From Comamonadaceae bacterium (GTDB lineage: Bacteria; Pseudomonadota; Gammaproteobacteria; Burkholderiales; Burkholderiaceae_C): DNA of 64,000 nt. Within the stretch, counting starts at the first letter, position 1; every line of letters starts with the position of its first letter. The notes beneath the pieces were generated by a model, which had not been told where the DNA came from, ran no database searches, and saw only the letters and a list, made by a program, of their open reading frames with translations. The DNA lies in the NCBI GenBank assembly GCA_947478725.1, contig CANJWZ010000023.1:1-64000 (forward strand), given 5' to 3'. The translations under genes and the position numbers were made by a program. Below are positions 3,673 to 53,995 of this stretch, one piece after another.

Positions 3673-4094
3673 CAAGCCTGATGCTGGACACGAACATCAT
3701 CTCTGACATGATGCGACATCTGCAAGGCCCAGCCGCCCAACGCGCAATCGCCATCAGCTCTAGTGAATCAGGCGGCAAACGCGGACTTTACACAAGTGTG
3801 ATTGTTCAATGCGAGCTAGAGTTTGGTCTGGCACGCCAGCCCAATCCACGACTGCAAATCGCCTACGATGCCGTGATGCAGACTATCGATGTTCTGCCAC
3901 TGACGAAAGACATCGTTTCCCGATACGCTGCCTTGCGCTCGCATCTTCAAGCTGCGGGCACGCCCATAGGCGCAAACGACTTGCTGATCGCGGCACACGC
4001 CTTGGCCCTGGATGCCACCTTGGTCAGCGCCGACGCTGATTTTTTGCGTGTGCCAGGCCTGCAGCTTGAAAACTGGCTGGCAGTCGAGGTTTGA
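3669..4094 (+). CDS. vapC: VapC-type PIN-domain toxin (ribonuclease)
   Basis: 141-residue PIN-domain protein. The acidic metal-binding residues expected of PIN nucleases are present: Asp in LMLDTNII (residue 7), Glu in CELEFGLA, Asp in GANDLLIAAHAL and Asp in SADADF. Proteins of this family cleave RNA (often initiator tRNA or rRNA) when freed from VapB. The ATG overlaps the antitoxin stop by 4 bp. The intact active-site set and the coupling argue that the module is functional. The exact RNA target cannot be read from sequence. Confidence 0.9.
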   Translation: MTSLMLDTNIISDMMRHLQGPAAQRAIAISSSESGGKRGLYTSVIVQCELEFGLARQPNPRLQIAYDAVMQTIDVLPLTKDIVSRYAALRSHLQAAGTPIGANDLLIAAHALALDATLVSADADFLRVPGLQLENWLAVEV

Positions 4095-4099
4095 TGCTA

Positions 4100-4186
4100 A
4101 CAAATTCAAAAATCGCTAAAAAACGATCAAATCAGCCTCTAGCCCAATAAAAAATTGGCCCAGTAGCTATCAAAAAAATAGTATCC
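4100..4186. repeat. Dispersed A/T-rich hairpin repeat between vapC and serB
   Basis: This spacer is almost wholly made of short nested inverted repeats: AAAAATCGCT/AAAAAACGAT, GCCCAAT-N5-ATTGGCCC, then AGTAGCTATCAAAAAAATAG. The same modules recur at 58902-58966, 25826-25868 and 7347-7392 and, in shorter form, inside several coding sequences. No transposase is near. It resembles the short palindromic repeats I associate with Comamonadaceae genomes. Confidence 0.7.
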
Positions 4187-4193
4187 GCAATTC

Positions 4194-4904
4194 ATGAATC
4201 CAACAGAAATATCGCCTAGCCTGGTCATTCAAGGCTTCACGCCGCCCTTGGCGCTGGCAAGCTTCAAGCTGATCGCCTTCGACATGGACTCGACGCTGAT
4301 CAACATCGAATGCATTGACGAGATTGCCGATGCGGTAGGCTTGAAGGCCGAAGTGGCCGCCATCACTGAGGCCACGATGCGCGGTGAGATTGCTGACTTC
4401 AAAACCAGCTTGCGCCGGCGCGTGGCGCTGCTCAAGGGCGTGAGTGTGGTCAGCATGGAACGCGTGTATACCGAGCGCCTGCAACTGAACCCCGGAGCCA
4501 CTGAGCTGGTGGCCGCTTGCAAAAAAGCGGGCATGAAGGTGTTGCTGGTGTCGGGCGGGTTCACGTTTTTTGCGGATCGTGTGGCGGCTCGGCTGGGCAT
4601 TGACTACGCCAAGTCCAACCAGCTTGAAGCGCTAGACGGCGTGCTGACAGGCCAACTGCTTGACCAGCCTTGGGGCGTTATTTGTGATGGCGAGGAAAAG
4701 CGCAAAACGCTGCTTGAAACCTGCACGCTGTTGGGCATTGAGCCAAGCCAGGCGATAGCCATGGGCGATGGCGCCAATGACTTGCCGATGATGGGTGCAG
4801 CAGGTTTGTCAGTGGCCTACCATGCCAAGCCCAAAGTGCGTGAGAAGGCGATGGTGGCCATCAATTCAGGCGGGCTGGACAGGCTGCTGGAAGTGCTGCA
4901 CTAA
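4194..4904 (+). CDS. serB: Phosphoserine phosphatase
   Basis: HAD-superfamily phosphatase catalysing the last step of serine synthesis (O-phospho-L-serine to L-serine). The 236 residues contain motif I DMDSTLI (about residue 31; first Asp is the nucleophile), motif II VSGGFTFF, a conserved Lys before motif III, and motif III GDGANDLPMM. The cap-domain pattern ECIDEIAD is typical of SerB. It lacks the N-terminal ACT-like extension found in longer SerB forms. The ATG lies 8 bp after the hairpin repeat, so any promoter must be within or before that repeat. It is convergent with cobQ, 5 bp apart. Confidence 0.95.
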   Translation: MNPTEISPSLVIQGFTPPLALASFKLIAFDMDSTLINIECIDEIADAVGLKAEVAAITEATMRGEIADFKTSLRRRVALLKGVSVVSMERVYTERLQLNPGATELVAACKKAGMKVLLVSGGFTFFADRVAARLGIDYAKSNQLEALDGVLTGQLLDQPWGVICDGEEKRKTLLETCTLLGIEPSQAIAMGDGANDLPMMGAAGLSVAYHAKPKVREKAMVAINSGGLDRLLEVLH

Positions 4905-16579: not shown

Positions 16580-16815
16580 ACCTTGTTGGCCGGTATCCGG
16601 GCTGACGAAGCTGCACTCATCACCTTCCCAAGCACTTGTTCAGGGCACTCAGTGGCTGTCGATGAATACTGGATAAAAGCCAGAAGTTCTGACCTGGATC
16701 CGTTCGTTTTACCGTTGCGGGGGCAGCGCAGGTTGAGAGACTTGGCACGCTTGAGTGCAAACTCTCTCCTGCTTCCCGTTGAACTGCGGCATGTGAACCA
16801 CACCGCGAGCACCAA
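16580..16815 (-). promoter_or_regulatory. Cobalamin (AdoCbl) riboswitch in the btuB leader
   Basis: Read on the minus strand, the leader shows the conserved cobalamin-riboswitch blocks in the right order: ACGGGAAGCAGG (16768-16779), GCTGCCCCCGCAACGGTAA (16709-16727), GCCACTGAGTGCCC (16643-16656), GGGAAGGTG (16621-16629) and the B12 box GTCAGCCCGGATACCGGCC (16588-16606). The B12 box ends about 95 nt before the btuB ATG. High adenosylcobalamin should reduce btuB expression and probably that of the downstream cob/btu operon. Boundaries are approximate. The remaining spacer to the divergent zapB-like gene carries nothing else I recognise. Confidence 0.95.
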
Positions 16816-41944: not shown

Positions 41945-42006
41945 GGCGTGCCTGACGGGTTGAGTTTGCGACAATGCGAATTGAATTTAACAAAGCAAAT
42001 TATCCA

Positions 42007-43098
42007 ATGGCTCTGCTCCCCTACGCCCTCGCTCGCCCCTTTTTATTTGGCCTCGACGCCGAAACCGCCCATGAGTTGACGATGGCCTCGCTGGCAAGCA
42101 CGCAGTACACACCGTTGTCGTTTGCGTATCGCAGCACGCGGGTTGACGACCCGATTGAACTGGCAGGACTGAAGTTTCCCAACCGTGTGGGCCTGGCTGC
42201 TGGACTGGATAAAAACGCGCGCTGTATTGATGGATTGGCGGCCATGGGGTTTGGTTTTATTGAGGTCGGCACCGTCACGCCAAAACCGCAGGTTGGAAAC
42301 CCGAAGCCACGCGTGTTTCGCCTGCCCAAGGCCAATGCCCTGATCAACCGGCTGGGACTGAACAATGACGGGCTTGACACATTTACTGCCAATGTGCAGC
42401 GCGCCTCGTTCCGAAATAGCAAAAGCATGGGTGACAAACTGCCCATGCTTTTGGGGCTGAACATCGGGAAAAACGCAAACACGCCGATGGCCAATGCGAC
42501 TGATGACTATCTGGCGTGCCTGGACGGCGTCTACGCTCACGCTGATTACGTGACCATCAATATATCGAGCCCCAACACCAAAAATCTTCGCGATTTGCAG
42601 GCCGATGAGGCACTTGATTCACTTCTCGCCGCGATGGCTGAACGACGCGAGTTGCTCGCTCAAAAACATGGCCGACGTGTGCCCTTTTTCGTCAAAATTG
42701 CGCCCGACCTGGACGATGCGCAAATCGGTGTCATTGCCGACACCATGCAGCGTTACGCTGCCAAAGACGCGGCCGCAAGCAGTCTGGGCTGGGGCCTGTT
42801 GGCAACGAACACCACCATCAGTCGAGAAGCGGTCGCAGGGCTACCCCATGCCACTGAAACTGGCGGACTTTCTGGCACACCCGTTCTAAGCGCCAGCAAC
42901 CGCATCATCACGCAACTGCGCAAAGCGCTGGGCAAGCAATTTCCAATTATCGGTGTGGGTGGCATTCTCAGCGCCGAAGATGCTGTCAGCAAAATCGTCG
43001 CGGGCGCAGACGTCGTCCAGATCTACACCGGGCTGATTTACAAAGGGCCAAACCTTGTGAGCCAGTCGGCCCTGGCCATCAAAAAACAATTTGTCTAA
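42007..43098 (+). CDS. pyrD: Dihydroorotate dehydrogenase (quinone), class 2
   Basis: Membrane-associated flavoenzyme of pyrimidine synthesis. From ATG 42007 ([21 protein letters not shown]) it has 363 residues; a start at 41974 would add 11 residues. The class 2 features are an N-terminal amphipathic helix, [20 protein letters not shown] (FMN site), [28 protein letters not shown], and [14 protein letters not shown], which carries the catalytic Ser. The late motif [27 protein letters not shown] (in parts) closes the barrel. It is convergent with the heterocycle cluster. Confidence 0.95.
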
Positions 43099-43101
43099 GT
43101 A

Positions 43102-43148
43102 AAAACCGAGGTACTGGTTTTCGAAGCTTTCAGCTGCTTGAAAGTTCG
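43102..43148. terminator. Two hairpins between convergent pyrD and the DUF3830 gene
   Basis: AAAACC-GAGGTACT-GGTTTT (43102-43121) is followed by CGAAGCTTTCA-GCTGC-TTGAAAGTTCG (43122-43148), the second overlapping the end of the DUF3830 frame. The first has T and A tracts on both sides and fits a bidirectional terminator. Stem strength is modest. Confidence 0.45.
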
Positions 43149-43546
43149 AAAATAACGTCTTGTGCGCCTTCCCACAACACCTTCTTGCCAAGCGTCATCA
43201 GTTGGTCACGACCTTCGGTGATGGTCAGAAAATGGTTGCCCGCCAAAGGTCCCATCTTGCTGGAAAAGCTGCAACCGCCATAGGCCAGAATAATTTCTGT
43301 CTCGCTGTAGCCACCAGGATAAAAAAGAATGTCCCCCGCCGAAGGATGGCTGGTGTGGTTCTCAAAGCTGACACCCAGCTTGAAGTCGCCCAGCGGTACC
43401 CAGCAGCCCTCACCACTCCAGCGCACGTGGATCAGTTTTTGACGATACGGCAGCAGCTTTAAAAAGGCAGCAACGGTGAGGGGCGCGTGCGGATTGGTTT
43501 CTGCAACGAAATGCAGACCACCGGCGGTAATGTTGATACGACTCAT
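43130..43546 (-). CDS. DUF3830 family protein (cyclophilin-like fold)
   Basis: 138 residues: FVAETNPHAPLTVAAFLKLLPY near the start, VRWSGEGCWVPLGDF, SFENHTSHPSAGDILFYPGGYSETEIILAYGG (in parts) and HFLTITEGRDQLMTLGKKVLWEGAQDVIF (in parts). I recognise this as the DUF3830 family, which often lies in amidohydrolase and ABC-importer clusters and has a cyclophilin-like barrel; its biochemical role is unknown to me. It is the last gene of the putative heterocycle cluster, 43 bp after the permease gene, so co-transcription is likely. Confidence 0.75.
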   Translation of the reverse strand: MSRINITAGGLHFVAETNPHAPLTVAAFLKLLPYRQKLIHVRWSGEGCWVPLGDFKLGVSFENHTSHPSAGDILFYPGGYSETEIILAYGGCSFSSKMGPLAGNHFLTITEGRDQLMTLGKKVLWEGAQDVIFELSSS

Positions 43547-43589
43547 GACAGCTTTCCTTGGGTTCTGTAATTTGTTGGGGCGTTTGACA

Positions 43590-44372
43590 TCACGCCATCA
43601 CCATTTCAGTCTTGCGTTGTGCCCACCCGGTCATGCGATGTTCAATCAACGAGGACAACGCGTAGAGTGCGACGCCCATGCCTGCCAGGAGAAAAAGACC
43701 GGCAAAAACAAGGGGGACATCAAAATTTCCGCTTGCAATCATCATGACCGTGCCAATGCCTTTGTTGGCGGCGACGGTTTCACTCAAAACAGTACCGACA
43801 AAAGCCAGCGTGATGGCGATTTTAAGGGACGCGAACAAGTAAGGCAGCGCACGCGGCAAGCCGACGTTCCAGAGCACGTCACGCTTGCTCGCACCCAAAA
43901 CCTTCAAGACGTCCTCAAGCTCCGGTTCGGTGCTGGCAAGTCCCGTGGCCACGTTGACCACGACCGGAAAAATGCTGATCACCATGGACGTCAAAATGGC
44001 GGGCACAGTACCAGACCCAAACCACACCACGAAAAGCGGAACCACAGCTACTTTTGGAATGCTGGAAAAACCAACCAGCAAAGGATAAGCCACGTCGTAG
44101 GCCAGCTTTGATGATCCGATCACCACCCCGATAAAAATACCGGCAAGCACGCCCATGGCAAAGCCCGCAAGGGTGGTGTAAAGCGTCTGAACCGTGTGCG
44201 GCCAAAGCAGCGGCATTTTGGCAAACAGCACCAGTGCTATCTGACTGGGGCGCGGCAAAATCAGATCAGAAACGCCAGTTGCAAGGCAGGCCAACTCCCA
44301 AACCGCGAAAAATGCAACCAGCGCAAAGGCAGACAGCAGGCGCTGGCGCATCTGTGGTGTGACGGTGCTCAT
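43590..44372 (-). CDS. ABC transporter permease (SsuC/TauC/ThiX-like)
   Basis: 260 residues with six predicted membrane segments. The cytoplasmic EAA-type loop EDVLKVLGASKRDVLWNVGLPRALPYLFASLKIAI (in parts) is characteristic of the nitrate/sulfonate/taurine/pyrimidine permease family. GVLAGIFIGVVIG and VGFSSIPKVAVVPLFVVWFG are further family motifs. It overlaps the ATPase gene by 4 bp (ATGA). With it and one or both NMT1/THI5-like binding proteins upstream it would make a complete importer for the heterocycle cluster. Confidence 0.88.
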   Translation of the reverse strand: MSTVTPQMRQRLLSAFALVAFFAVWELACLATGVSDLILPRPSQIALVLFAKMPLLWPHTVQTLYTTLAGFAMGVLAGIFIGVVIGSSKLAYDVAYPLLVGFSSIPKVAVVPLFVVWFGSGTVPAILTSMVISIFPVVVNVATGLASTEPELEDVLKVLGASKRDVLWNVGLPRALPYLFASLKIAITLAFVGTVLSETVAANKGIGTVMMIASGNFDVPLVFAGLFLLAGMGVALYALSSLIEHRMTGWAQRKTEMVMA

Positions 44373-45232
44373 GCTGCCACCGCCTGCTCTGGGGCCACAG
44401 CATCGACGTTGCGACGTGCATCGGCAATACGCATCCGCAGTTGCTGCACAAGCGCAGCAAATTCCGGCGAGTAGCTGCTCTCTAGCGTACGCGGCCTGTC
44501 AAACGGAACCGCTCGTGTCTCCAGGATGCGTCCCGGGCGTGAACTCATCACGCAAATGCGATTGGCCAGATACGCTGACTCGCGCAAATCATGGGTCACC
44601 AGCAACACCGTTGGCTTTTTCGTCATCCAGAGAGCCTGCATGATGTCCCACAACTCCTCCCGGGTGAACTGGTCAAGCGCACCAAACGGCTCGTCGAGCA
44701 ATAGCAGTTCGGGATCGTGCACGAGCGCCCGGCAAAGCGAGGCGCGCTGCAGCATGCCGCCAGAAAGCTGCCAGGGCCGCTTGTCACCAAAACCTGCCAG
44801 GCCCACTTGTGCCAACAATGACTCCGCGCGGTCTTTGTACTCGCCCCGTTTTTTGCGTGCGAATTCACTGCGGAAGGGTTCCACAATTTTCAGCGGAATC
44901 ATCACGTTTTCAAGTATCGTCAGCCATGGCAGCATGGTCGGATTCTGGAAAGCCAGTCCAATCCGCAGTCGAGGTGTGGCACTGGCATGGTTTCCGCCGG
45001 AGTTCCCAGAGGAAACTGCACCCACTTCTCGCCCGCCCGCGATGACGGCACCAGAACTGGGTTGAAGCAGCCCCGCCACCAACTTGAGAATGGTGGACTT
45101 GCCGCACCCACTCGGGCCAACCAGCGCCACAAAGTCTCCCTCGTCGATGCCCAGCGTGGTGTGATCCAGCGCCAGCGTTCCCCCGCCATAGCGCAGCATC
45201 ACATCTGACAGTTGAATGAATGAATTAGCCAT
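44369..45232 (-). CDS. ABC transporter ATP-binding protein (SsuB/TauB/ThiZ-like)
   Basis: 287 residues from ATG 45232; the in-frame TTG at 45244 is less likely. Walker A GPSGCGKST (about 39-47), the Q-loop in GLAFQNPTMLPWLTILENV, signature LSGGMLQRASLCRAL, Walker B LLLLDEPFGALDQFTREEL and switch His LLVTHDLRESAYLANRI. This pattern is typical of the nitrate/sulfonate/aliphatic amine family. There is an unusual insert with SSGNSGGNHASAT between Walker A and the Q-loop. It precedes and overlaps the permease gene. Confidence 0.9.
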   Translation of the reverse strand: MANSFIQLSDVMLRYGGGTLALDHTTLGIDEGDFVALVGPSGCGKSTILKLVAGLLQPSSGAVIAGGREVGAVSSGNSGGNHASATPRLRIGLAFQNPTMLPWLTILENVMIPLKIVEPFRSEFARKKRGEYKDRAESLLAQVGLAGFGDKRPWQLSGGMLQRASLCRALVHDPELLLLDEPFGALDQFTREELWDIMQALWMTKKPTVLLVTHDLRESAYLANRICVMSSRPGRILETRAVPFDRPRTLESSYSPEFAALVQQLRMRIADARRNVDAVAPEQAVAA

Positions 45233-45276
45233 GGTGTCTTTCAAAAAATGGAGGCGACTGACTTGCGCACAACGCT

Positions 45277-46413
45277 CTAGGCGCTAGCCATACGAATGAT
45301 GGCCGCTACAGGGCCACCACCTGCTGGGCCTTGATGTTCAGCGCCACCCGATACATACAATTCGCAGTGGCCAATAACCGATGCCAATACACCGCCAACC
45401 ACGGCCCTGGCGTGCCGCGTCGAGTGAATGTCTGAATCGTTCAGCATGGTGTGGCGGGATTGCCTTACCCGCCCGTCCGGGCTTGCTTCGGCCTTGGCCA
45501 ACAAGCTGACAACACGCTGCGCAAGCAAGGTTGAATCGTCTTGTGAGTTCAGGCCCGACACTGCGTTCAGCAGCTTTCTCACGCTCGCAGCATCAATGGC
45601 ATCTTTCATCACTGTGTGAGCAATGCGCAGCGTGGACTGGCTGGTCACAGCTTCACCCAGCACAATCACCACATTGCATTCCAGTTCAATGCCAGCAGAA
45701 GCCGATGCCAGCGACGAGTAAAGACCCCAGTCCGACAAGATCGCTGAGTCATTGACCTGCGCGCGCTGAAGCTCTCCTAGGGCCACAGCCACGCCCAGCG
45801 CAGACGCGCCACGCGAATAGCCCATAGACTCATAGCTGTCACGCGTGACAGGCAAAGCACCCCGAGACAGTGCATCGTTGACTTTTGCAGACGTCAGAAG
45901 TGGGCATTTGACCTGGACAAAATGAACATCAGCAGCATCGTTGATGCCCGCATCGCGCATCGCCGCCAAGGTCGCGCGAGCCGTCGCATCCACTTGAGCG
46001 ACCCGACCCATTTCTTCAGGTAAAAAATCTTGCGTTTTTGCGATGCCAACCACCAGGCGCTTCGAACTTTGAGCTTCATCAGGCGCAGCCGGTAGCCATC
46101 GACGCGTGAAGACCGTGAAGTGTGGCGACAAAACGCCTTCCGTGCCGCCCGACATGACCAATGCCACCCTGGAGTGGACCTCCTCGGGGGCACAGCCCAG
46201 CGCTGGCGCCAACAACTGGCACCAAGCGGCGCTGGCGTACTCGCGCGTGAAGTCGTTGACGCAGCCATTACCCTCTGTTTTTCCCATCACCGCAACCACC
46301 TCGGCGGGTACCAGATCGCCAGCATCTATCAGCGCCTGAACGCCTGAAAGATCAGCGGGACTCCGGCAAGGAACTCGCCAGACATCGACTTTTTGATGCC
46401 GTTGTCCGCTCAT
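45277..46413 (-). CDS. Cyanuric acid amidohydrolase / barbiturase family ring-opening hydrolase
   Basis: 378 residues with the three-repeat fold unique to the AtzD/TrzD/barbiturase family. Three Lys-Ser pairs expected for the active site are seen: MGKTEGNG (K45) with VMSGGTEG (S88); VQVKCPLLT (K169) with the Ser cluster SSLASASAGIELE (about 233-239); LLAKAEASPDGR (K307) with YVSGGAEHQGP (S355). MLNDSDIHSTRHARA and GPAGGGPVAAII complete the family signature. It hydrolyses a cyclic imide amide bond, giving carboxybiuret from cyanuric acid or ureidomalonate from barbiturate. Which substrate applies cannot be told by eye. Overlaps the next upstream amidohydrolase by ATGA. Confidence 0.9.
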   Translation of the reverse strand: MSGQRHQKVDVWRVPCRSPADLSGVQALIDAGDLVPAEVVAVMGKTEGNGCVNDFTREYASAAWCQLLAPALGCAPEEVHSRVALVMSGGTEGVLSPHFTVFTRRWLPAAPDEAQSSKRLVVGIAKTQDFLPEEMGRVAQVDATARATLAAMRDAGINDAADVHFVQVKCPLLTSAKVNDALSRGALPVTRDSYESMGYSRGASALGVAVALGELQRAQVNDSAILSDWGLYSSLASASAGIELECNVVIVLGEAVTSQSTLRIAHTVMKDAIDAASVRKLLNAVSGLNSQDDSTLLAQRVVSLLAKAEASPDGRVRQSRHTMLNDSDIHSTRHARAVVGGVLASVIGHCELYVSGGAEHQGPAGGGPVAAIIRMASA

Positions 46414-47879
46414 GCGTTGTCTTTCACTGGCTCGCCCACTGGCAACGCATTGACGGGCACGCCGTGGGGCGTCTGAAGGATGGCGCTGCTGTAGTGCTCT
46501 GTGTTGCGCGGCTTGGGGGTTGGCATTTTTTGCACGCTTTTAACGGAATGGCCCCAGCCGGCCGCTTCTGTCACGAGCTTGCCGTCACGCATCACAAAAC
46601 GGCCGCGAACCAAGGTATGCAGCGGATAGCCCTGCACGGCACGACCATGCCACGGCGAAATTTTGCTGATGCTCTGGAGCCGGTTTTGCGACAGCACACC
46701 CGCACGCTGCATGTCGACCAGCGCGATGTCAGCATCCGCACCCGGCGCGATGACGCCTTTCGTCCCATAAAGACCCCAGGCCTTGGCGGGGGCAACGGCG
46801 CTCCAGCGGACATAGTCCATCAAAGTGGCACGATTTCGATTGATTTCGGTCAGCATCAGCGGCATTTGCGTTTCCACACCCGGAAACCCGCAATCGCAAT
46901 TCCAGATGCTCTCGCGCATCTTTTCGTCTGGCGCATGTGGCGCATGGTCAGTCGCGATCATGTCAATGGTGCCATCCATCAACGCGTCCCAGAGCGGCTG
47001 GTTGTGGCGAGCCTCGCGGATGGGTGGGTTGACCCGCATGATGCCGCCAAGCTTGAGCATGTGCTCGGTGTTGAGCAGCAAATATTGCGGACAGGTCTCG
47101 GCCGTCACATCAACCCCGCGGCGTTTGGCTTCGCGCAGCAGATACAGAGAATCGGCCGCGCTGTGGTGCGCAATATGAACGCGCGCGCCGGTCCATTCGG
47201 CAAGGGTGAGCACCCGGCCAATGGCCTCAATTTCAGCCACAGCAGGCCGCGCGGCCAGATGCGCCAGTGCGTCAATGCGCCCGGCCAGTTGCATGTGTTG
47301 CTGGCGTCTGCTCAGGATGGATGAGTTTTCTGCGTGCACCACGGTGCGAATACCCAGCGGGGCAAGTTTTTCAAAGCCCTCCAGTAAGGCACCATCGGTC
47401 GGTGCCGGCAAATTACCAAAGGTGTTGCCGACAAATGCTTTAAAACTCGTCACCCCCGCATCCAGCAGCGCTTCAAGGTGGTCTACCGTGTCGTCGCCTA
47501 ACAGTCCATGGATGCCAAAGTCCACATAAGACGACTCGGCAGCCTTCTGCTTGAGCCGCAAGGCTTCAAGCGTTGCCGTCGGCGGATGGGTGTTGGGCAT
47601 TTCAAATACCGTGGTGACACCGCCACAGGCCGCTGCGGCCGAGCCAGTCTTCCAGGTTTCCTTGTTTGGATAGCCTGGATCACGAAAGTGCACATGGCTG
47701 TCGATCGCTCCAGGCAACAGAAACAGGCCGTCAGCCCGCATCTCTTCACGTGCAGCGGGCATCAGGTCATCATGACCCACAGCAACAATCTTTTCACCCG
47801 CAATCGCAACGCTGGCTTGGATGATCTGATCGGCAGACACCACACGGGCGCCCCGGATGACCAGGTCCACTTCTTTCAT
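46410..47879 (-). CDS. Dihydroorotase/allantoinase-like amidohydrolase
   Basis: 489 residues from ATG 47879 (AAAGGA precedes; an ATG at 47894 would place that site inside the gene). Binuclear-metal motifs are DSHVHFRDPGYPNKE (H62, H64), the carboxylated Lys in TSFKAFVGN (K147), VVHAENS (H182), VHIAHHSAAD (H238/H239) and IATDHAPHAPDEK (D311). This set fits the hydantoinase/allantoinase/dihydroorotase group that opens cyclic imides or ureides. A C-terminal extension of ~50 residues (PKPRNTEHYSSAIL...) is unusual. It is coupled to the cyanuric acid/barbiturase-family gene and so probably acts in the same pathway. Confidence 0.85.
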   Translation of the reverse strand: MKEVDLVIRGARVVSADQIIQASVAIAGEKIVAVGHDDLMPAAREEMRADGLFLLPGAIDSHVHFRDPGYPNKETWKTGSAAAACGGVTTVFEMPNTHPPTATLEALRLKQKAAESSYVDFGIHGLLGDDTVDHLEALLDAGVTSFKAFVGNTFGNLPAPTDGALLEGFEKLAPLGIRTVVHAENSSILSRRQQHMQLAGRIDALAHLAARPAVAEIEAIGRVLTLAEWTGARVHIAHHSAADSLYLLREAKRRGVDVTAETCPQYLLLNTEHMLKLGGIMRVNPPIREARHNQPLWDALMDGTIDMIATDHAPHAPDEKMRESIWNCDCGFPGVETQMPLMLTEINRNRATLMDYVRWSAVAPAKAWGLYGTKGVIAPGADADIALVDMQRAGVLSQNRLQSISKISPWHGRAVQGYPLHTLVRGRFVMRDGKLVTEAAGWGHSVKSVQKMPTPKPRNTEHYSSAILQTPHGVPVNALPVGEPVKDNA

Positions 47880-47890
47880 GTTGTTTCCTT

Positions 47891-48682
47891 TCACAGCATG
47901 GCCCAGCCGCCGTCAACCGGCAGGTCAACACCCGTGATCTGGCGCGACACATCACTGGCCATAAAAAGGCATGCATTGGCAACATCGTCGTCATTCGTGA
48001 CACGCTTTAGCGCGTAATCGGCAGCATGCCTTGTCATGGCTTCTTCAAGCGTGATGCCCAGCTTTTCGGCCATGTTTGCACAAACCTTCTCACGAAAGCG
48101 TGGGCCATCGACCATGCCGGGTGCCACACAATTCACGTTGATGCCGTAAGGGCCGGCTTCTAGTGCAAAACTTTTGGTGATTCCGCGCAGACCCCACTTC
48201 GATGCCGAATAAGCCATGCGCCCCGCGCGCCCACGCATGCCAAAGGTGCCGCCCACGTTCACCACCTTGCCGCTTTTGCGTGCAATCATTTCCGGTATCA
48301 CCGCATGCATGGTGTTAAAGCAGCCCGTCATGTTGAGCTGCACGATTTCGTTGAATTCTTCGGTGCTGGTTTCCCAACCTGTCTTGCCAATGGGGCCGGA
48401 GCCGCCCGCCACATTGACCAGCACATCAATGCGCCCGAATGCTCTCATTGCAGCGGCTGCCAGCGCCTCGGTTTGTGCCGGTACCGTCATGTCACAAGAC
48501 ACGACGAGCGCATCCACGCCCAGGGTACGCGCCTCAGCAGCAACAGGTTCGATGGCGGCAATATCGCGGCCAGCCAGCACCAGGGTCGCGCCCTCACGCG
48601 CGAATGCCAAAGTGACAGCCCGGCCCATGCCTTTGGCCGGTCCAGTGATCACGGTTACCTTGCCTTTGAGTTGGAGATCCAT
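47891..48682 (-). CDS. Short-chain dehydrogenase/reductase
   Basis: 263 residues from ATG 48682. The cofactor motif is TGPAKGMGRAV (TGxxxGxG), then NVAGGSGP, the active-site Ser in VNVGGTFGMRG, the catalytic YSASKWG (Tyr-x-x-x-Lys), and GLRGITKSFALEAGPYGINVNCVAPGMVDGPR (in parts), which marks a classical SDR. It lies between a binding-protein gene and the dihydroorotase-like gene in the same direction. It may oxidise or reduce a ring or side chain of the substrate. Substrate unknown. Confidence 0.88.
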   Translation of the reverse strand: MDLQLKGKVTVITGPAKGMGRAVTLAFAREGATLVLAGRDIAAIEPVAAEARTLGVDALVVSCDMTVPAQTEALAAAAMRAFGRIDVLVNVAGGSGPIGKTGWETSTEEFNEIVQLNMTGCFNTMHAVIPEMIARKSGKVVNVGGTFGMRGRAGRMAYSASKWGLRGITKSFALEAGPYGINVNCVAPGMVDGPRFREKVCANMAEKLGITLEEAMTRHAADYALKRVTNDDDVANACLFMASDVSRQITGVDLPVDGGWAML

Positions 48683-48707
48683 GGAAATGTTGTCTTTCTG
48701 AAAAACT

Positions 48708-49727
48708 TTAAAACTTCGAGAGCCGCTCGGCGCGCGCAGGCAAAAAGTTGCGATTGAATACTTCACCCGTGGTGGGGGTGCGGGGCAGTTGATTGGCCTC
48801 CACCACGATACCGATGGCCTTTTTCAGGCGTTCATCATCAACGTCACCCAGACCGATACGCGCAATCTCAGGATGGCTCATGTCGTTACGAATCGTCGCC
48901 AGCAGCTTTTCTTTTTCCACGTCGCGCTTGAGCAATGGCTCGCGCTTCATGGCGAAATCAACACCGGCATCCGGGTTGGCGGCCACTTCCTTGATGGCTC
49001 GGTTAAGCGCCTTGACAAAACCTTGAACCGCTTTTGGATTTTCAGCAACAAAGTTTTTTGAGAAGAACACAGCGTTTGCGTACAAATCCATGCCCGAGTC
49101 GCCGTAGCGGATAAACCGCAGGTCTTTGGCTGGGTCCAGCCCCATCGCCTTGGCACTGAAAGTGACGGTAGTGACATAACCAAACACCGCATCAACCTGA
49201 CCGCGCGCCAGCATTTGTTCGCGCAGGTTAGGCGCCATATTGGTCACAGTGACTTTGCTCGCGTCGATTTTTGCCAGCTTGGCGTAGGCGGGGAACAGTT
49301 TGAGTGCAGCATCGTTGGCCGGCCCACCGATGGTTTTTCCTTCCAGGTCTTTGGGTGTCTTGATCGGACTGTCCTGTTTGACCACCACCGTGAACGGGGG
49401 GGTGTTGTACATCATGTAAACCGCCACCGGCGCGTCGGCCGGCCGCTTTGAAGCCAGATCAATCAAGGCGTTGAGGTCACCAAAACCAGCTTGATAAGCG
49501 CCCGATGCCACCTTGGGGACGGATGCGGCTGAGCCTTCGCCCTGGTCAAACTCGACGTCTAGTCCCTCGGCCTTGAAATAACCTTTGTCCTGCGCCAGGA
49601 AAAACCACGCCTGCGCGCCTTCATATTTCCAGTTCAGAACCATCTTGATTTTGGTCTGCGCTAAAACGGCAGCAGGTGAAAGCGCTGCGCACAGGGCTAG
49701 CAAGGCAAAGCGGCGGGATAGTTTCAT
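48708..49727 (-). CDS. NMT1/THI5-like ABC substrate-binding protein (second of two)
   Basis: 339 residues from ATG 49727. A signal peptide (RRFALLALCAALSPAAVLAQ) precedes IKMVLNWKYEGAQAWFFLAQDKGYF, the classical NMT1/THI5/SsuA opening. FDQGEGSAASVPKVASGAYQAGFGD and KTPKDLEGKTIGGPANDAALKLFPA (in parts) follow. It is about half identical by eye to the other binding protein of this cluster (51024-52058), so a duplication followed by divergence is likely. It probably delivers a pyrimidine-like or related ligand to the downstream permease and ATPase. Confidence 0.88.
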   Translation of the reverse strand: MKLSRRFALLALCAALSPAAVLAQTKIKMVLNWKYEGAQAWFFLAQDKGYFKAEGLDVEFDQGEGSAASVPKVASGAYQAGFGDLNALIDLASKRPADAPVAVYMMYNTPPFTVVVKQDSPIKTPKDLEGKTIGGPANDAALKLFPAYAKLAKIDASKVTVTNMAPNLREQMLARGQVDAVFGYVTTVTFSAKAMGLDPAKDLRFIRYGDSGMDLYANAVFFSKNFVAENPKAVQGFVKALNRAIKEVAANPDAGVDFAMKREPLLKRDVEKEKLLATIRNDMSHPEIARIGLGDVDDERLKKAIGIVVEANQLPRTPTTGEVFNRNFLPARAERLSKF

Positions 49728-49765
49728 GGTTTTCTTTCGGTTGGTTGATGAATCAATACGCTGAG

Positions 49766-50995
49766 TCAATACGCAGCGGGGGCAATCTGCACTGGCCCTG
49801 ACACCTGAACGCCGCGCTTGACCACAGCGAGCCTGGTGGACTGCTGCAAAATAGCGTCAGGAACGGATTTGGCATCCAGCACGATCAGGTCAGCCAGGCA
49901 GCCTGGCGCCAAACCGTAACTTTCAAGCCGCAGCATTCGCGCGGCGTTGCTGGTCATGGTCTGCCACACCTTTTCGAGCCCGGCGTTGTGCAGCTGCTTG
50001 GTCAGCTGCGCCAGTAAAAGCATGGCTTTGAGCGGGTCGGCATCACCAAAGCGGACAAAAGGATCGCGCATGTTGTCAGTGCCGCACGAGACATTGACGC
50101 CGGCTTCCATCAGCTCCAAAGTCCTGGTCAGGCGAATGCGCGTGGGCAGAACGCAGACCTGGAGATCGGCTTTTTTCATCAGGTCAATCGTGTCGATCGC
50201 CACAGCATGGCTGACACAGGCCAGCGATGCGATGTGAGACACAGCCACACGGCCCTGCCAGCCCTGCTCTATTGTTTTTTTCGCGACATAGGGCAGCGTG
50301 AAAGCCAATTCTGCGTCCCAGTTATCGAGGTGGTAGTCAATCTCGCAGTCATGCAGTTTCGCCAGCGCGAAAGTTTCGTCGACCTGCCGCTCTGGGTCAG
50401 AGGGCCAGATGGCACGGTTGACGTTTCCGCCAACGATCCTGACCCCTTTTTCCACCGCCTCCGTGATGAAGGGGCCAGCGCCGTCTTCAAGGGTTCCAGC
50501 GGTGTTAAACCAGCCCTCCTGCGGGAAGGCGGTGACTTGTACGTCCACCTTGCCAGCCATGGCACGGGCAGCCCTGTTGATGCCTTCCACAGCCCGCTGA
50601 CCCACGTAGCGGTCTACTTCGCAATTGGTGCGCACTGTTGTGGTGCCGTGGGCTAAGCCCATCGTGAGCGACTGCCTCGCCCGTGCAGCCACATCTTCAA
50701 CCGTGAAATCAGCCTTGAGCAGGCGCACGGCACGAATCGCCTCGCTCAAGCCTGCAACGTCTGCACCGTCGGCAACCCTGTCACTGATCAGAGCTTTGTC
50801 GATGTGAACATGCGGGTCAACGAAGGCTGACGAGACCAGTCGCCCGCCAGCGTCCCAGGCTGGCCCATCCACACCTGTGCGATCGCCCGAGGTGTCTGGC
50901 TCAACGCTGATGATGCGATCAGCGTCAATGCTGACGCGCCAACGCCCACCACGTCCCGGTAAGGTGGCGTTACAAATGGTCCAGGGACTTGTCAT
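49766..50995 (-). CDS. Cytosine deaminase-like amidohydrolase
   Basis: 409 residues of the metal-dependent amidohydrolase superfamily. SSAFVDPHVHIDKALI gives the HxH ligands, followed by the helical GLAHGTTTVRTNCEVD, a WDAELAFTLPYVAKKT region with YHLDN (His/Asp), VSHIASLACV with its His, and CGTDNMRDPFVRFGDADPL, which matches the SDNxxDPF motif of CodA-type deaminases. It probably removes an amino group from, or hydrolyses, an azine or pyrimidine. It ends 39 bp before the second binding-protein gene. Some members act on creatinine, isocytosine or triazines. Confidence 0.85.
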   Translation of the reverse strand: MTSPWTICNATLPGRGGRWRVSIDADRIISVEPDTSGDRTGVDGPAWDAGGRLVSSAFVDPHVHIDKALISDRVADGADVAGLSEAIRAVRLLKADFTVEDVAARARQSLTMGLAHGTTTVRTNCEVDRYVGQRAVEGINRAARAMAGKVDVQVTAFPQEGWFNTAGTLEDGAGPFITEAVEKGVRIVGGNVNRAIWPSDPERQVDETFALAKLHDCEIDYHLDNWDAELAFTLPYVAKKTIEQGWQGRVAVSHIASLACVSHAVAIDTIDLMKKADLQVCVLPTRIRLTRTLELMEAGVNVSCGTDNMRDPFVRFGDADPLKAMLLLAQLTKQLHNAGLEKVWQTMTSNAARMLRLESYGLAPGCLADLIVLDAKSVPDAILQQSTRLAVVKRGVQVSGPVQIAPAAY

Positions 50996-51023
50996 TTGAA
51001 AGTAGGTCTTAAAAGTGCAACGT

Positions 51024-52058
51024 TCAAAGCGCAGACTTCACCAGACGCTCCTGCTTGGGCGGCAGAAAACTGCGGTTGAAAATCTCAACAGGGGCAGGTG
51101 TGCGGGCAAGTTCATAGCTGTCAACGATTTGCGCGATCGCGCGCGTCATGCGGGCATCGCTCACATCGCCCAAACCCAACTCGTTCGACTCAGGCGTCAA
51201 CACATTGCTTTTCAGGACGTAAACCATCCTGCGCTTTTCGATGTCTTTGTTGATCAGTGGCTCGTTCTTGGCGAGGTTGTCAATGCAAGCGTCAGGCTGG
51301 GTGATGCAGTCCTTCATGGCACGATTGATGGCCTTGACCAAGCCTGTCACGGCTTGAGGCCTCTCCTTGGCAAGCTTGGCCGTCACCAAGACGCCATTGC
51401 TGTAAAGGTCCAAACCCAGATCGTTGTAGAAAATCCAGCGAATATCTTTCTCGGGATCAATCCCCATCGACACAAAATTCATGTAGCTGGTGGCAGAAAA
51501 AACGGCAGATGCCTCGACCTGGCCGCGCATCAACATTTGCTCTTGCAGGCTAGGCGCCATATTGGTCCATGTCACCTTCTTTTCATCAATGTTGTTTTTC
51601 TTGGCAAGCGCAGCAAATACCTTCAGCGCCGCACTGCCAGCGGGCGAGCCCAGCGTTTTGCCTTCAACATCCTTGAGCGTTTTGATCGTGCTGCCAGCCT
51701 TGGTGACGAGTGCAAACGGTGCGCGGTTGTAGATCATGTACACCATCACCGGGGCTTCGCCTGGTTTGGTCGAAGCGCCCTGAATAATGGCATTGACATC
51801 ACCCACCCCGGCCTGGTAAGTGCCCGACATCACGCGCGAAACGGCGGCAGCAGAGCCCTCCCCTTGGTCAATCGTCACATCCAAATTTTCTGCCTTGAAG
51901 TAACCTTTGTCCTGGGCCCAGTAAAACCATGAATGCACGCCCTGAATTTTCCAATCGAGTGTGAACTTGATTTTGGTAACTTCTTGCGCGACTGCTGGCA
52001 TGGAACAGGCAAGTGCTGCAGCGCCCAGAGCGAGGCACAGGCGATTGATTAATTTCAT
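51024..52058 (-). CDS. NMT1/THI5-like ABC substrate-binding protein (first of two)
   Basis: 344 residues from ATG 52058, which overlaps the cysteine hydrolase stop (ATGA). Signal peptide RLCLALGAAALACSMPAVAQ, then IKFTLDWKIQGVHSWFYWAQDKGYF and VTIDQGEGSAAAVSRVMSGTYQAGVGD (in parts). The pattern is the same as in the second binding protein 1.3 kb downstream. Proteins of this fold bind pyrimidines (HMP-like), sulfonates or nitrate. The open frame before 52058 is antisense-like overlap and not used. Confidence 0.88.
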   Translation of the reverse strand: MKLINRLCLALGAAALACSMPAVAQEVTKIKFTLDWKIQGVHSWFYWAQDKGYFKAENLDVTIDQGEGSAAAVSRVMSGTYQAGVGDVNAIIQGASTKPGEAPVMVYMIYNRAPFALVTKAGSTIKTLKDVEGKTLGSPAGSAALKVFAALAKKNNIDEKKVTWTNMAPSLQEQMLMRGQVEASAVFSATSYMNFVSMGIDPEKDIRWIFYNDLGLDLYSNGVLVTAKLAKERPQAVTGLVKAINRAMKDCITQPDACIDNLAKNEPLINKDIEKRRMVYVLKSNVLTPESNELGLGDVSDARMTRAIAQIVDSYELARTPAPVEIFNRSFLPPKQERLVKSAL

Positions 52059-52933
52059 TGGGCGTCCTTCAGGTTGGTGGTGGTAAATACAGTGGCGCCA
52101 CGCTGCTTGCGCATGCGGCGGGCAACAGTCAGCTCGGCCAAGGCAGGCAGCAGCGTTGAGGTAGTAGCCACAAATCCATGCAACTGCTTGACAATGAAGT
52201 GAACAGCTTTGGTGACGTAAGCAGGAGACGGCGTGCTGCATGCGTCAGACAAAAGCACGCAGTCATAGCCCAAGAAACCGGCATCCTGCAAGCTTGAAAA
52301 GACACATCTATCCGTATTCACGCCTGCAAACAACAGGGTTGTGATGCCCTGCTGGCGCAAAATACTGTCCAGCTCGTTGTCCCAGAAGCCACTCAAGCGG
52401 TGCTTGAAAACCAGTATGTCCTGTGGCGCGAGCGGGAGTTCATCAATCACCTGCGCTCCCCACTGTCCGGGCACGACAGCCAAGCCATGGTCTTGAGGCG
52501 AGCGTTCCGCATAACCGACGCCATCAGGCGTACGCTTGCCCTTGAACTGGACGGTTGGACTTAAATTGAGACGGTCAGGTCGGACACCCCAGTTAAGCCA
52601 GATCACGGTACCGCCGGCAGGCCGCCAGGCCTCAAGCAGCTTGGCGATGACGGGAATTGGCTTGCGCATGGGCTTAACACTGACACCCTTTTGACCAAAC
52701 CAGCCCGCAGGGTGGCAAAAGTCGTTCTGCATATCCACCACAATTAAAGCGCTTCGGGCCAAGTCAATTTCTAACGCCTGTGGCTGTGCATCGAAACGCA
52801 CAGTGACAGGAGTTTTGACTTTTCGCACCAAACTAAGGCATTGATCCGTGAGCGCCCAAGCGTTGTGCGGGGAGGGGCCGAAAGTGGCCTGGATCACCGC
52901 TTTGGTGCGTATTAACGATTTGATGCGCGTCAT
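52055..52933 (-). CDS. Isochorismatase-family cysteine hydrolase
   Basis: 292 residues from ATG 52933 (a TTG lies 15 bp upstream). The catalytic Asp lies in LIVVDMQNDFCHPAGWFGQKG, Lys in LVFKHRLSGFWDNELDS, and the nucleophile Cys in FAGVNTDRCVFSSLQDAG, the normal D-K-C set. A ~50-residue N-terminal extension precedes the fold. RutB (ureidoacrylate) and biuret hydrolase belong to this family, so hydrolysis of a ring-opened ureide or biuret-like product is plausible. It is the promoter-proximal gene of the cluster, divergent from the LysR gene. Confidence 0.85.
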   Translation of the reverse strand: MTRIKSLIRTKAVIQATFGPSPHNAWALTDQCLSLVRKVKTPVTVRFDAQPQALEIDLARSALIVVDMQNDFCHPAGWFGQKGVSVKPMRKPIPVIAKLLEAWRPAGGTVIWLNWGVRPDRLNLSPTVQFKGKRTPDGVGYAERSPQDHGLAVVPGQWGAQVIDELPLAPQDILVFKHRLSGFWDNELDSILRQQGITTLLFAGVNTDRCVFSSLQDAGFLGYDCVLLSDACSTPSPAYVTKAVHFIVKQLHGFVATTSTLLPALAELTVARRMRKQRGATVFTTTNLKDAQ

Positions 52934-53059
52934 GCCCGAATATCGCAAGCGGCGTGCCTGACACCGCTCTTCATATGCACCTTTTCGAGCGCTATGTGCT
53001 GCCGATACGGCAACGGTTTAACATGTGGCCCAGCAAATCACTTCACAGAAAGAACCCTT

Positions 53060-53995
53060 GTGAACCATCTACGATTTTTGAATTATGTGGACGAGGTTGC
53101 CCGTGCCGGCTCAATCCGGCAGGCAGCAGACAGGCTGCACGTTGCCGCATCAGCCGTTAACCGCCGGGTACTTGATCTGGAAGCGGAGCTGGGTACAGCC
53201 ATTTTTGAGCGCCTGCCCAGAGGCGTGCGCCTGACCGCCGCGGGTGAGCTTTTCGTGGCTTACATCCGCAGCCGTTCAGCCCAGTTAGAACAGGTTCGCA
53301 CAGAAATCGAAGACCTGAAAGGCCTGCGTCGCGGGATGGTCAAGGTGATTGCAAGCCAGGCCTTAGCCCCCGTCTTTTTACCCCGAGCTATCGCGGCCTT
53401 CAGGTCTACCCACCCCATGGTGGGTGTGGATGTGCATATTGGTGACCACCTGCATGCACTCAAGTCGCTCAGGAATTTTGAAGCGGATCTGGCGCTCATA
53501 TTCAACCTTGCGCCTGACGCAGACATGGACCGAATCGCTGAAATCGAGCAGAAGCTGGTGGCGGTGATGCACCGCAGCCATCCGCTTGCCCATCAGCCTG
53601 ACTTGCGGCTGCGCGACTGTATTGAATACCCGCTCATCTTGCCGAATCAGGACTTGGGTGGACGCCAACTGCTGGAGAATTTTTTAGTCCGCAGCTCGGT
53701 CAAATTACGCCCTGCGGTTGAAAGCAACAGTTTTGAGTTCATGAGAAGCTACCTGGTGCATGAACAGGGAATATCTTTTCAAATTGCCATCGGTGCGGTC
53801 ATTGAAGGAGACGAGCTGGTGGCGCGTGAAATAGCCGATCGCGGATTCCCGCGCGGCCAGCTGGTACTGGCTTGTCTGCGTGGCAGGCAACTGCCCGTGA
53901 TAGCCCACGCGTTTGCCGATGACCTCATCACTGCCCTGCACAAGCACCAAGACCCCATCCCGACCGGTCGTACCAGCGCAAACCTGGCGCGATAA
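53060..53995 (+). CDS. LysR-type transcriptional regulator
   Basis: 311 residues from GTG 53060, which has AGAAAGAA upstream; an ATG at 52994 would add 22 unlikely residues. The N-terminal winged HTH is RFLNYVDEVARAGSIRQAADRLHVAASAVNRRV (in parts) followed by LEAELGTAIFERLPRGVRLTAAGE. The effector domain covers the rest, with LPRAIAAFRSTHPMVGVDVHIGD. It is divergent from the ten-gene cluster, with about 125 bp between starts, the classical arrangement for a regulator of an adjacent catabolic operon. Its effector is probably the cluster substrate or an intermediate. Confidence 0.9.
   Translation: MNHLRFLNYVDEVARAGSIRQAADRLHVAASAVNRRVLDLEAELGTAIFERLPRGVRLTAAGELFVAYIRSRSAQLEQVRTEIEDLKGLRRGMVKVIASQALAPVFLPRAIAAFRSTHPMVGVDVHIGDHLHALKSLRNFEADLALIFNLAPDADMDRIAEIEQKLVAVMHRSHPLAHQPDLRLRDCIEYPLILPNQDLGGRQLLENFLVRSSVKLRPAVESNSFEFMRSYLVHEQGISFQIAIGAVIEGDELVAREIADRGFPRGQLVLACLRGRQLPVIAHAFADDLITALHKHQDPIPTGRTSANLAR

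Follow-up and report, generated by a model that had tools for sequence, protein, structure and literature searches.

In this study, we analyzed a 64,000-nucleotide stretch (hereafter the window) of contig CANJWZ010000023.1 from a Comamonadaceae genome (GCA_947478725.1; 79 contigs, 3.99 Mb), and found an eleven-gene cluster that probably imports a nitrogen-rich ring compound and degrades it via cyanuric acid. The cluster consists of a LysR gene divergent from ten minus-strand genes. All eleven are present in the order given by a first-pass annotation of this DNA, and Pfam and NCBIfam models confirmed their families: DUF3830, a BPD_transp_1 permease, an ABC ATPase, Amido_AtzD_TrzD (505 bits), a dihydroorotase/allantoinase-type amidohydrolase (DHO), an SDR oxidoreductase, two NMT1-type substrate-binding proteins (SBP1 and SBP2), a CodA/AtzC-type amidohydrolase and an isochorismatase-fold cysteine hydrolase (CysH). 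That annotation left the N-heterocycle unnamed, which is too open, because the ring-opening enzyme, the LysR regulator and the deaminase all indicate the cyanuric acid/s-triazine network.

The ring-opening enzyme is a predicted cyanuric acid hydrolase

The AtzD-like gene (45277–46413, minus strand) is predicted to encode a cyanuric acid hydrolase (CAH) rather than a barbiturase. Its product scored 536 bits on the CAH equivalog model NF052395 (cut-off 360), and matched the PDB structures of AtzD (455 bits), TrzD (422), the Moorella CAH (420) and barbiturase (284). It is 62.3% identical to AtzD of plasmid pADP-1. The Ser-Lys dyads, the Arg residues and the metal loop GGxEHQGPxGG (SGGAEHQGPAGGGP in the window) are the same as in AtzD. 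A passage of PMC3758960 separates CAHs from barbiturases by Arg195, Thr321, Arg325, Gly345 and Gly346. The published residue numbers are offset by 0 to -2 from pADP-1 AtzD, and positions were matched by motif. All five residues are present in the window protein, a pattern common to 39 of the 44 aligned rows (the window protein and AtzD counted), and none of the barbiturase-type residues (Asn195, His321, Lys325, Val345, Ser/Ala346) was found there. On these specificity residues, we rejected barbiturase as its identity.

We also ran the phylogeny that had been proposed as a check on the first-pass annotation. In a maximum-likelihood tree of 55 rows, in which the tool flagged some long branches, the window protein falls among characterised CAHs: AtzD, TrzD and the Moorella and Azorhizobium CAHs bracket its clade. 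The same clade holds the AtzD of locus L030, located by BiuH- and TrtA-like genes, and those of L035 and L036, located by AtzE, AtzH and AtzF.

The AtzD-like query matched 132 plasmid records, about half from Rhizobium and about a third from Enterobacterales, and several plasmids among the 40 matches listed came from human samples. Two plasmids, Aminobacter pSR8 and an IncX5 plasmid of Serratia (L048, L050), carry CAH genes that adjoin fdrA, DUF1116, arcC and DUF2877. More distant AtzD-family genes at L059, L060 and L061 (43–47% identity) have Gln at the Thr321 position. They adjoin AtzR-like LysR and ABC genes, with AtzH-like and weakly AtzE-like genes as well at L060 and L061, and this group may represent a further activity within the family.

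The regulator is AtzR-like and has a predicted operator

The open reading frame (ORF) of the LysR gene opens at 52994, and a start at 53060 or 53087 is likelier (53060–53995, plus strand). Its LysR Pfam domains, its position in a tree and its 54.2% identity to pADP-1 AtzR over 288 aa identify it as AtzR-like. A predicted AtzR-type operator, the T-N11-A palindrome TGCCGATACGGCA, is located upstream at 53000–53012 (no strand assigned). An AtzR site of the form GTGCC-N5-GGCAC has been described. Of the 44 AtzR-like genes examined, 26 have the pattern TGCC-N5-GGCA in the 300 bp upstream, pADP-1 atzR and the window gene among them; of 26,000 random 300-bp windows drawn from the same loci, 556 contain it. 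By itself, the pattern is nothing unusual in the window (6 occurrences vs 4.31 expected), so only its place and conservation count. Three extra genes stand between LysR and CysH in L013, L015, L016, L018 and L019; judged by eye, they encode a helix-turn-helix regulator, an alpha/beta-hydrolase-like protein and a periplasmic amino-acid-binding-like protein.

The deaminase resembles TrzC and AtzC

The CodA/AtzC/TrzC-type gene (49766–50995, minus strand) encodes a putative TrzC/AtzC ammelide-type aminohydrolase, as judged from PDB matches, a plasmid relative and an active-site comparison. Of the proteins with solved structures, AtzC is its best match (173 bits), followed by cytosine deaminase (125). 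Among 72,556 plasmids, the best match, together with Klebsiella records, was an amidohydrolase beside the CAH gene of Aminobacter pSR8, with 39% identity by tblastn and 37% over the full alignment. The pSR8 CAH groups with TrzD at zero branch length, and its neighbour is presumably TrzC, a label that the record itself does not bear. Active-site positions for the comparison were taken from passages of PMC4577212 on AtzC. Lys65, Asp219, Pro280, Asn304 and Phe309 (AtzC numbering) are common to the window deaminase and the pSR8 neighbour. The two are identical at 12 of 14 compared AtzC-pocket positions, a fifteenth being a gap.

Genes for the proposed later steps are located elsewhere in the genome

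At the ends of contigs C49 and C47 of the same genome, we found AtzF, ABC transporter genes, AtzG, AtzE, GntR and AtzH. The gene for the AtzF homologue (711 bits, cut-off 511) is split between the end of C49 and the start of C47 (L076, L081), so that the assembly interrupts an AtzF-ABC-AtzG-AtzE-AtzH locus. The AtzE homologue is 69% identical to pADP-1 AtzE and scored 674 bits (cut-off 426). Thus, the earlier statement that AtzE and AtzF are missing is true of the window but not of the genome. A similar arrangement, atzF-(ABC)-atzG-atzE-atzH, is described for orphan clusters of Comamonadaceae in passages of PMC6219798, which name no ring-opening partner. The SDR-DHO-type genes studied here co-occur with AtzE and AtzF.

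To measure this co-occurrence, we compared DHO-bearing genomes with an order sample of 200 genomes, whose five DHO-bearing members were moved out to leave 195. Four genomes with an AtzD match (G020, G039, G243, G079; no DHO known, AtzE in three) were left out of the 17 DHO-bearing genomes. AtzE above its cut-off was present in 14 of the 17 and in 21 of the 195 (Fisher p = 4e-10), and AtzF in 15 and 49, respectively (Fisher p = 3.5e-7), p-values that ignore kinship and to that extent count against our interpretation. In five DHO-bearing genomes, the surroundings of DHO showed no AtzD (AtzD was searched there, not genome-wide), and four of these five have AtzE. In G177 and G255, AtzE is located about 20 kb from the AtzD cluster.

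The cluster is conserved in close relatives

Using six peptide patterns of the AtzD-like query, we collected 27 loci from 84,980 species genomes. They are close relatives; 24 of them are long (>17 kb), and gene-presence thresholds were set in this analysis. The nearest is a locus of a Comamonadaceae metagenome-assembled genome (MAG), with 98% identity, and the named relatives include Variovorax and Pseudacidovorax. LysR, a binding protein, SDR, DHO, ATPase and permease were each found in 23 of the long loci, CysH in 22 and DUF3830 in 21. Since the same 23 loci carry the first six together (L026 has AtzD alone), the association of these genes is not due to chance. This neighbourhood search bore out the claim of a linked, co-transcribed-looking cluster. 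In the cluster loci from Burkholderiales, as in L066, AtzD is the next gene after DHO. AtzE adjoins LysR in L020 and L021, and TrtA-like genes, named by inference, are located near the cluster in 5 of the 24 relatives.

The SDR-DHO core is more widely distributed

In DHO searches, 7 of the 399 genomes sampled from the order matched (E<=1e-150), as did 2 of the 369 from the class and 4 of the 398 from the phylum (E<=1e-130), the own genome included in each. There were also 70 matching plasmid records (E<=1e-60), of which four were read. The SDR-DHO core reaches the alphaproteobacteria. SDR stands beside DHO in 13 of the 14 loci found in this way, ATPase and permease are present in 9, and AtzD in 6 (L062, L063, L064, L066, L084, L088). 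Most of the 14 have AtzR-like LysRs (39–51% identity), with or without AtzD. The AtzDs of L084, L066 and L088 fall outside the window clade, and that of L084 groups with the Azorhizobium CAH (support 97/85). From these groupings, the pairing of CAH and core would have either two to four origins, or one early origin followed by frequent losses or exchanges. One stretch of L066 holds AtzE-AtzG-AtzF, an 8-oxoguanine-deaminase-like gene, SDR, DHO, AtzD and M20.

Residues of DHO, SDR and CysH

The DHO gene (46410–47879, minus strand) encodes a dihydroorotase-like cyclic amidohydrolase. Its product scored 328 bits on the dihydroorotase model TIGR00857 (cut-off 279), and on the allantoinase models TIGR03178 and NF004839 it scored 370 (cut-off 358) and 378 (cut-off 631), respectively. 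It has the motifs HVHFR and MPN, as E. coli dihydroorotase PyrC has HLHLR and MPN; solved allantoinases have HFN or HIS in place of HFR, and MPLN. By family score and by its HxHxR and MPN motifs, the protein classes at sequence level with the dihydroorotases. The Arg of HxHxR is present in all six motif variants listed, which make up 38 of 43 rows, and we take the HxHxR and MPN residues to be binders of a substrate carboxylate. Three lower-scoring paralogues in the genome (L095–L097) are without dihydroorotase-type HxHxR/MPN motifs. AllB allantoinase was rejected as a firm call for DHO, which is just above one cut-off and has the wrong pocket motifs.

The SDR (47891–48682, minus strand; PF13561) has Gly in place of the catalytic Ser of classical SDRs, a feature of all 41 sequences compared, and Tyr and Lys are kept. 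Catalytic residues had been described as intact in the cluster. This is correct for the AtzD-like protein, whose catalytic positions match those of AtzD, and for CysH, whose Asp-Lys-Cys triad is kept, but not for the SDR.

CysH (52055–52933, minus strand; PF00857) has a RutB-like pocket. Among PDB structures it matched RutB (123 bits) and BiuH (93), and it is below both family cut-offs (RutB 135 bits, cut-off 378; BiuH/TrtA 113 bits, cut-off 370). It shows K-x-R-x-S-G-F as RutB does, and has Leu where BiuH has Lys145. In a passage of PMC5806882, BiuH Lys145 variants are effectively inactive. On the score and the Leu, we rejected biuret or triuret hydrolase (BiuH/TrtA) as its identity, and with this biuret-binding lysine absent, the earlier idea of a biuret-type hydrolase is not supported. 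In the closest relative (L002), tblastn gave CysH in two pieces at about 3889–4356 and no full-length ORF was detected; the gene is decaying, or the MAG sequence has a frameshift there.

Transporter genes, DUF3830 and surroundings

The remaining genes, all on the minus strand, encode SBP1 (51024–52058; PF09084, 120 bits), SBP2 (48708–49727; PF09084, 136 bits), a taurine/nitrate-type ABC transporter ATPase (44369–45232; PF00005), the ABC transporter permease (43590–44372; PF00528) and the DUF3830 protein (43130–43546; PF12903, 105 bits). DUF3830 has no solved relative by sequence, and as a search term it gave no match in an open-licence literature library. Likely starts are downstream of the longest-ORF starts for CysH (52933), SBP2 (49727), SDR (48682), DHO (47879) and ATPase (45232). 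The ATGA couplings of the first-pass annotation are present as three overlaps, at 52055–52058, 46410–46413 and 44369–44372. The base composition of the window gave no sign of an island, and a promoter scan found 3 promoters vs 4.4 expected in shuffles.

A dihydroorotate dehydrogenase gene (PF01180) at 41974–43098 of the window abuts the cluster. In loci of Variovorax and Pseudacidovorax, the cluster has a phosphoribosyltransferase gene nearby (PF00156; judged by eye to be of orotate type), e.g. at 16758–17411 of L005. These neighbours are possibly a coincidence, or a hint of orotate-like chemistry.

A proposed pathway and its alternatives

We propose that the cluster is a chromosomal nitrogen-scavenging unit under AtzR-type control, and for the scheme as a whole we judge the chances to be about even. 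The AtzR-type LysR would control the cluster, and the NMT1-type ABC transporter with its two binding proteins would take up an amino/oxo nitrogen-rich heterocycle of s-triazine type. The TrzC/AtzC-like deaminase would turn this compound into cyanuric acid by removing its amino group. The AtzD-like enzyme would open the cyanuric acid ring to 1-carboxybiuret, and the AtzG/AtzE, AtzH and AtzF homologues elsewhere in the genome would convert 1-carboxybiuret to ammonia and CO2. In a second branch, SDR and DHO may act on a related ring compound of that family, carboxylated or hydrated, and the RutB-like CysH would cleave the linear ureide from this branch. The substrates, the order of steps and the roles of SDR, DHO, CysH and DUF3830 are the inferred part of the scheme. 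It builds on what was observed here: which genes are present and conserved, their residues, how similar the regulator and operator are, and the downstream genes.

Several observations weigh against this proposal. We know of no step in cyanuric acid degradation that needs an SDR or a dihydroorotase-like enzyme. The window deaminase was found in just 3 of the 24 long loci; another TRZ/ATZ-type amidohydrolase (c9), preceded by a binding-protein gene, is present in 18, and none carries both. Orthology between c9 and the window deaminase was considered and rejected. The TGCC-N5-GGCA motif is absent upstream of 18 of the 44 AtzR-like genes, namely in the five loci with genes between LysR and the run, in L024 and L065, and otherwise at LysRs that are alphaproteobacterial or still more distant. 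Of 299 genomes drawn from the same family, 14 matched the AtzD-like protein (the own genome included, one by a short fragment), and DHO stands beside AtzD in just 7 of these. Thus, the CAH of this lineage works without the rest of the cluster too. In G020, G039, G243 and G079, AtzD is accompanied by AtzE-, AtzF-, AtzH- or BiuH-type genes, as in ordinary cyanuric acid operons; G074, G253 and G269 have neither DHO nor such an operon near AtzD, G253 being a weak exception. No AtzD was found in the stretch fetched for 8 of the 14 DHO-found loci (L065, L067, L085–L087, L089–L091, of which L090 and L091 are short contigs). Several of these loci also have AtzR-like LysRs beside them, so core and regulator do not depend on the CAH. 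Finally, atzGEH clusters without atzD are common according to a passage of PMC6219798.

A possible but rather doubtful alternative is that the cluster serves mainly to degrade a different N-heterocycle, also carboxylated and similar to orotate, hydantoin or an azapyrimidine, by way of import, deamination, an SDR step, ring opening by DHO and ureide cleavage by CysH, FmdA or M20. AtzD would then be a local add-on through which the unit can use cyanuric acid as well. It is consistent with Azospirillum plasmids, G300 and G1306, where SBP, SDR, DHO, ATPase, permease and amidohydrolase occur without AtzD in the stretch fetched. An acetamidase/formamidase (FmdA)-type gene replaces AtzD on the Azospirillum plasmids and in G1306, and an M20 deacylase occupies its slot in G300; DUF3830 was found on the Azospirillum plasmids and not in the G300 and G1306 stretches. 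The match of the DHO motifs to E. coli dihydroorotase rather than to the three paralogues, and the closeness of CysH to RutB rather than BiuH, also fit. However, the AtzE/AtzF enrichment of DHO-bearing genomes, with AtzE in most of those where no AtzD was seen near DHO, fits a biuret- or carboxybiuret-type product, and the CAH-core pairing is seen in more than one AtzD lineage.

The cluster could also combine two independent functions behind one transporter and regulator, with the TrzC-like deaminase and AtzD serving amino/oxo-triazines and SDR, DHO, CysH and DUF3830 serving an unrelated ureide-forming heterocycle. The two binding proteins would suit this, as would the differing deaminases and terminal hydrolases that lineages plug into the same core, and the varying position of the CAH gene (after the amidohydrolase gene in Skermanella, beyond LysR in G855). 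But the ATGA overlap of AtzD and DHO in the window, together with the AtzD-after-DHO order in Burkholderiales loci and L066, makes a split of this kind unlikely. Degradation of barbiturate or uracil, by the barbiturase route or by Rut, is suggested by the shared protein family of barbiturase and by the CysH pocket; it is highly improbable given the CAH-type residues, the lower barbiturase score and the fact that no RutA, RutC, RutD, RutF or RutG was found among the cluster genes, to which that search was confined.

For the core itself, we consider one further and decidedly speculative idea, which we would not expect to hold. SDR, DHO and DUF3830 might form a natural route from carboxylated or unsubstituted 1,3,5-triazinediones (such as oxonate = 5-azaorotate, and 5-azauracil) or other urate oxidation products to cyanuric acid, carboxybiuret or biuret. 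This might be the pre-industrial setting in which CAH, AtzR and TrzC-like deaminases assembled before they moved to herbicide-degrading plasmids. Literature listings gave no degradation genes for oxonate, allantoxanate or 5-azauracil. 

As to the natural occurrence of cyanuric acid, a passage of a 2014 paper states that no natural source of the compound is known, and suggests that the CAH fold may have been dying out until commercial triazines revived it (PMC4051656). Passages of other papers report that it is formed naturally, if only occasionally, in oxidative DNA damage (PMC3758960) and that it occurs in Paramecium secretions (2025, PMC12342508). Natural substrates of the kind proposed for the cluster are plausible but unproven.

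Comparison with known systems

The cluster resembles the pADP-1 atzR-atzDGEHF operon in its divergent AtzR-type LysR, the same upstream motif and the AtzD-type CAH, and the genome also has AtzG, AtzE, AtzH and AtzF homologues. It differs in that AtzD runs with SDR, DHO, CysH, a TrzC-like deaminase and DUF3830, the transporter is NMT1-type instead of BMP-type, and AtzG/E/H/F are on other contigs. The layout is therefore not that of atrazine catabolism, as the first-pass annotation held. The trzC-trzD region (TrzD PDB 5T13; Aminobacter pSR8) likewise pairs a CAH with an ammelide-type aminohydrolase of common active-site pattern, but pSR8 has fdrA, DUF1116, arcC and a BMP transporter, and the deaminases are only 37–39% identical. 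Rhizobium BiuH/TrtA operons for cyanuric acid and triuret share the combination of CAH, isochorismatase-fold cysteine hydrolase and ABC transporter, whereas the window CysH is without the BiuH lysine and under the BiuH cut-off. The Rut pyrimidine pathway shares a RutB-like cysteine hydrolase, but the window has a different ring-opener and no further Rut gene in the cluster. We rejected this pathway because CysH is below the RutB cut-off and no RutA is in the cluster, in agreement with the earlier reading. The suggestion that the combination may be undescribed also stands, as searches of an open-licence library gave no description of the cluster.

Taken together, the predicted families place several genes without a known role beside relatives of a regulator and enzymes known above all from atrazine-degrading plasmids. 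Since the named relatives include Variovorax, Pseudacidovorax and Azospirillum, the original substrate of AtzR-, AtzD- and TrzC-like genes in a conserved cluster unlike the pADP-1 and pSR8 layouts is directly testable. The cluster gives DUF3830 a testable context and supplies the orphan atzF-atzGEH clusters with a partner acting upstream of them. It may also help explain what the relatives of atrazine-plasmid genes did before triazine herbicides.

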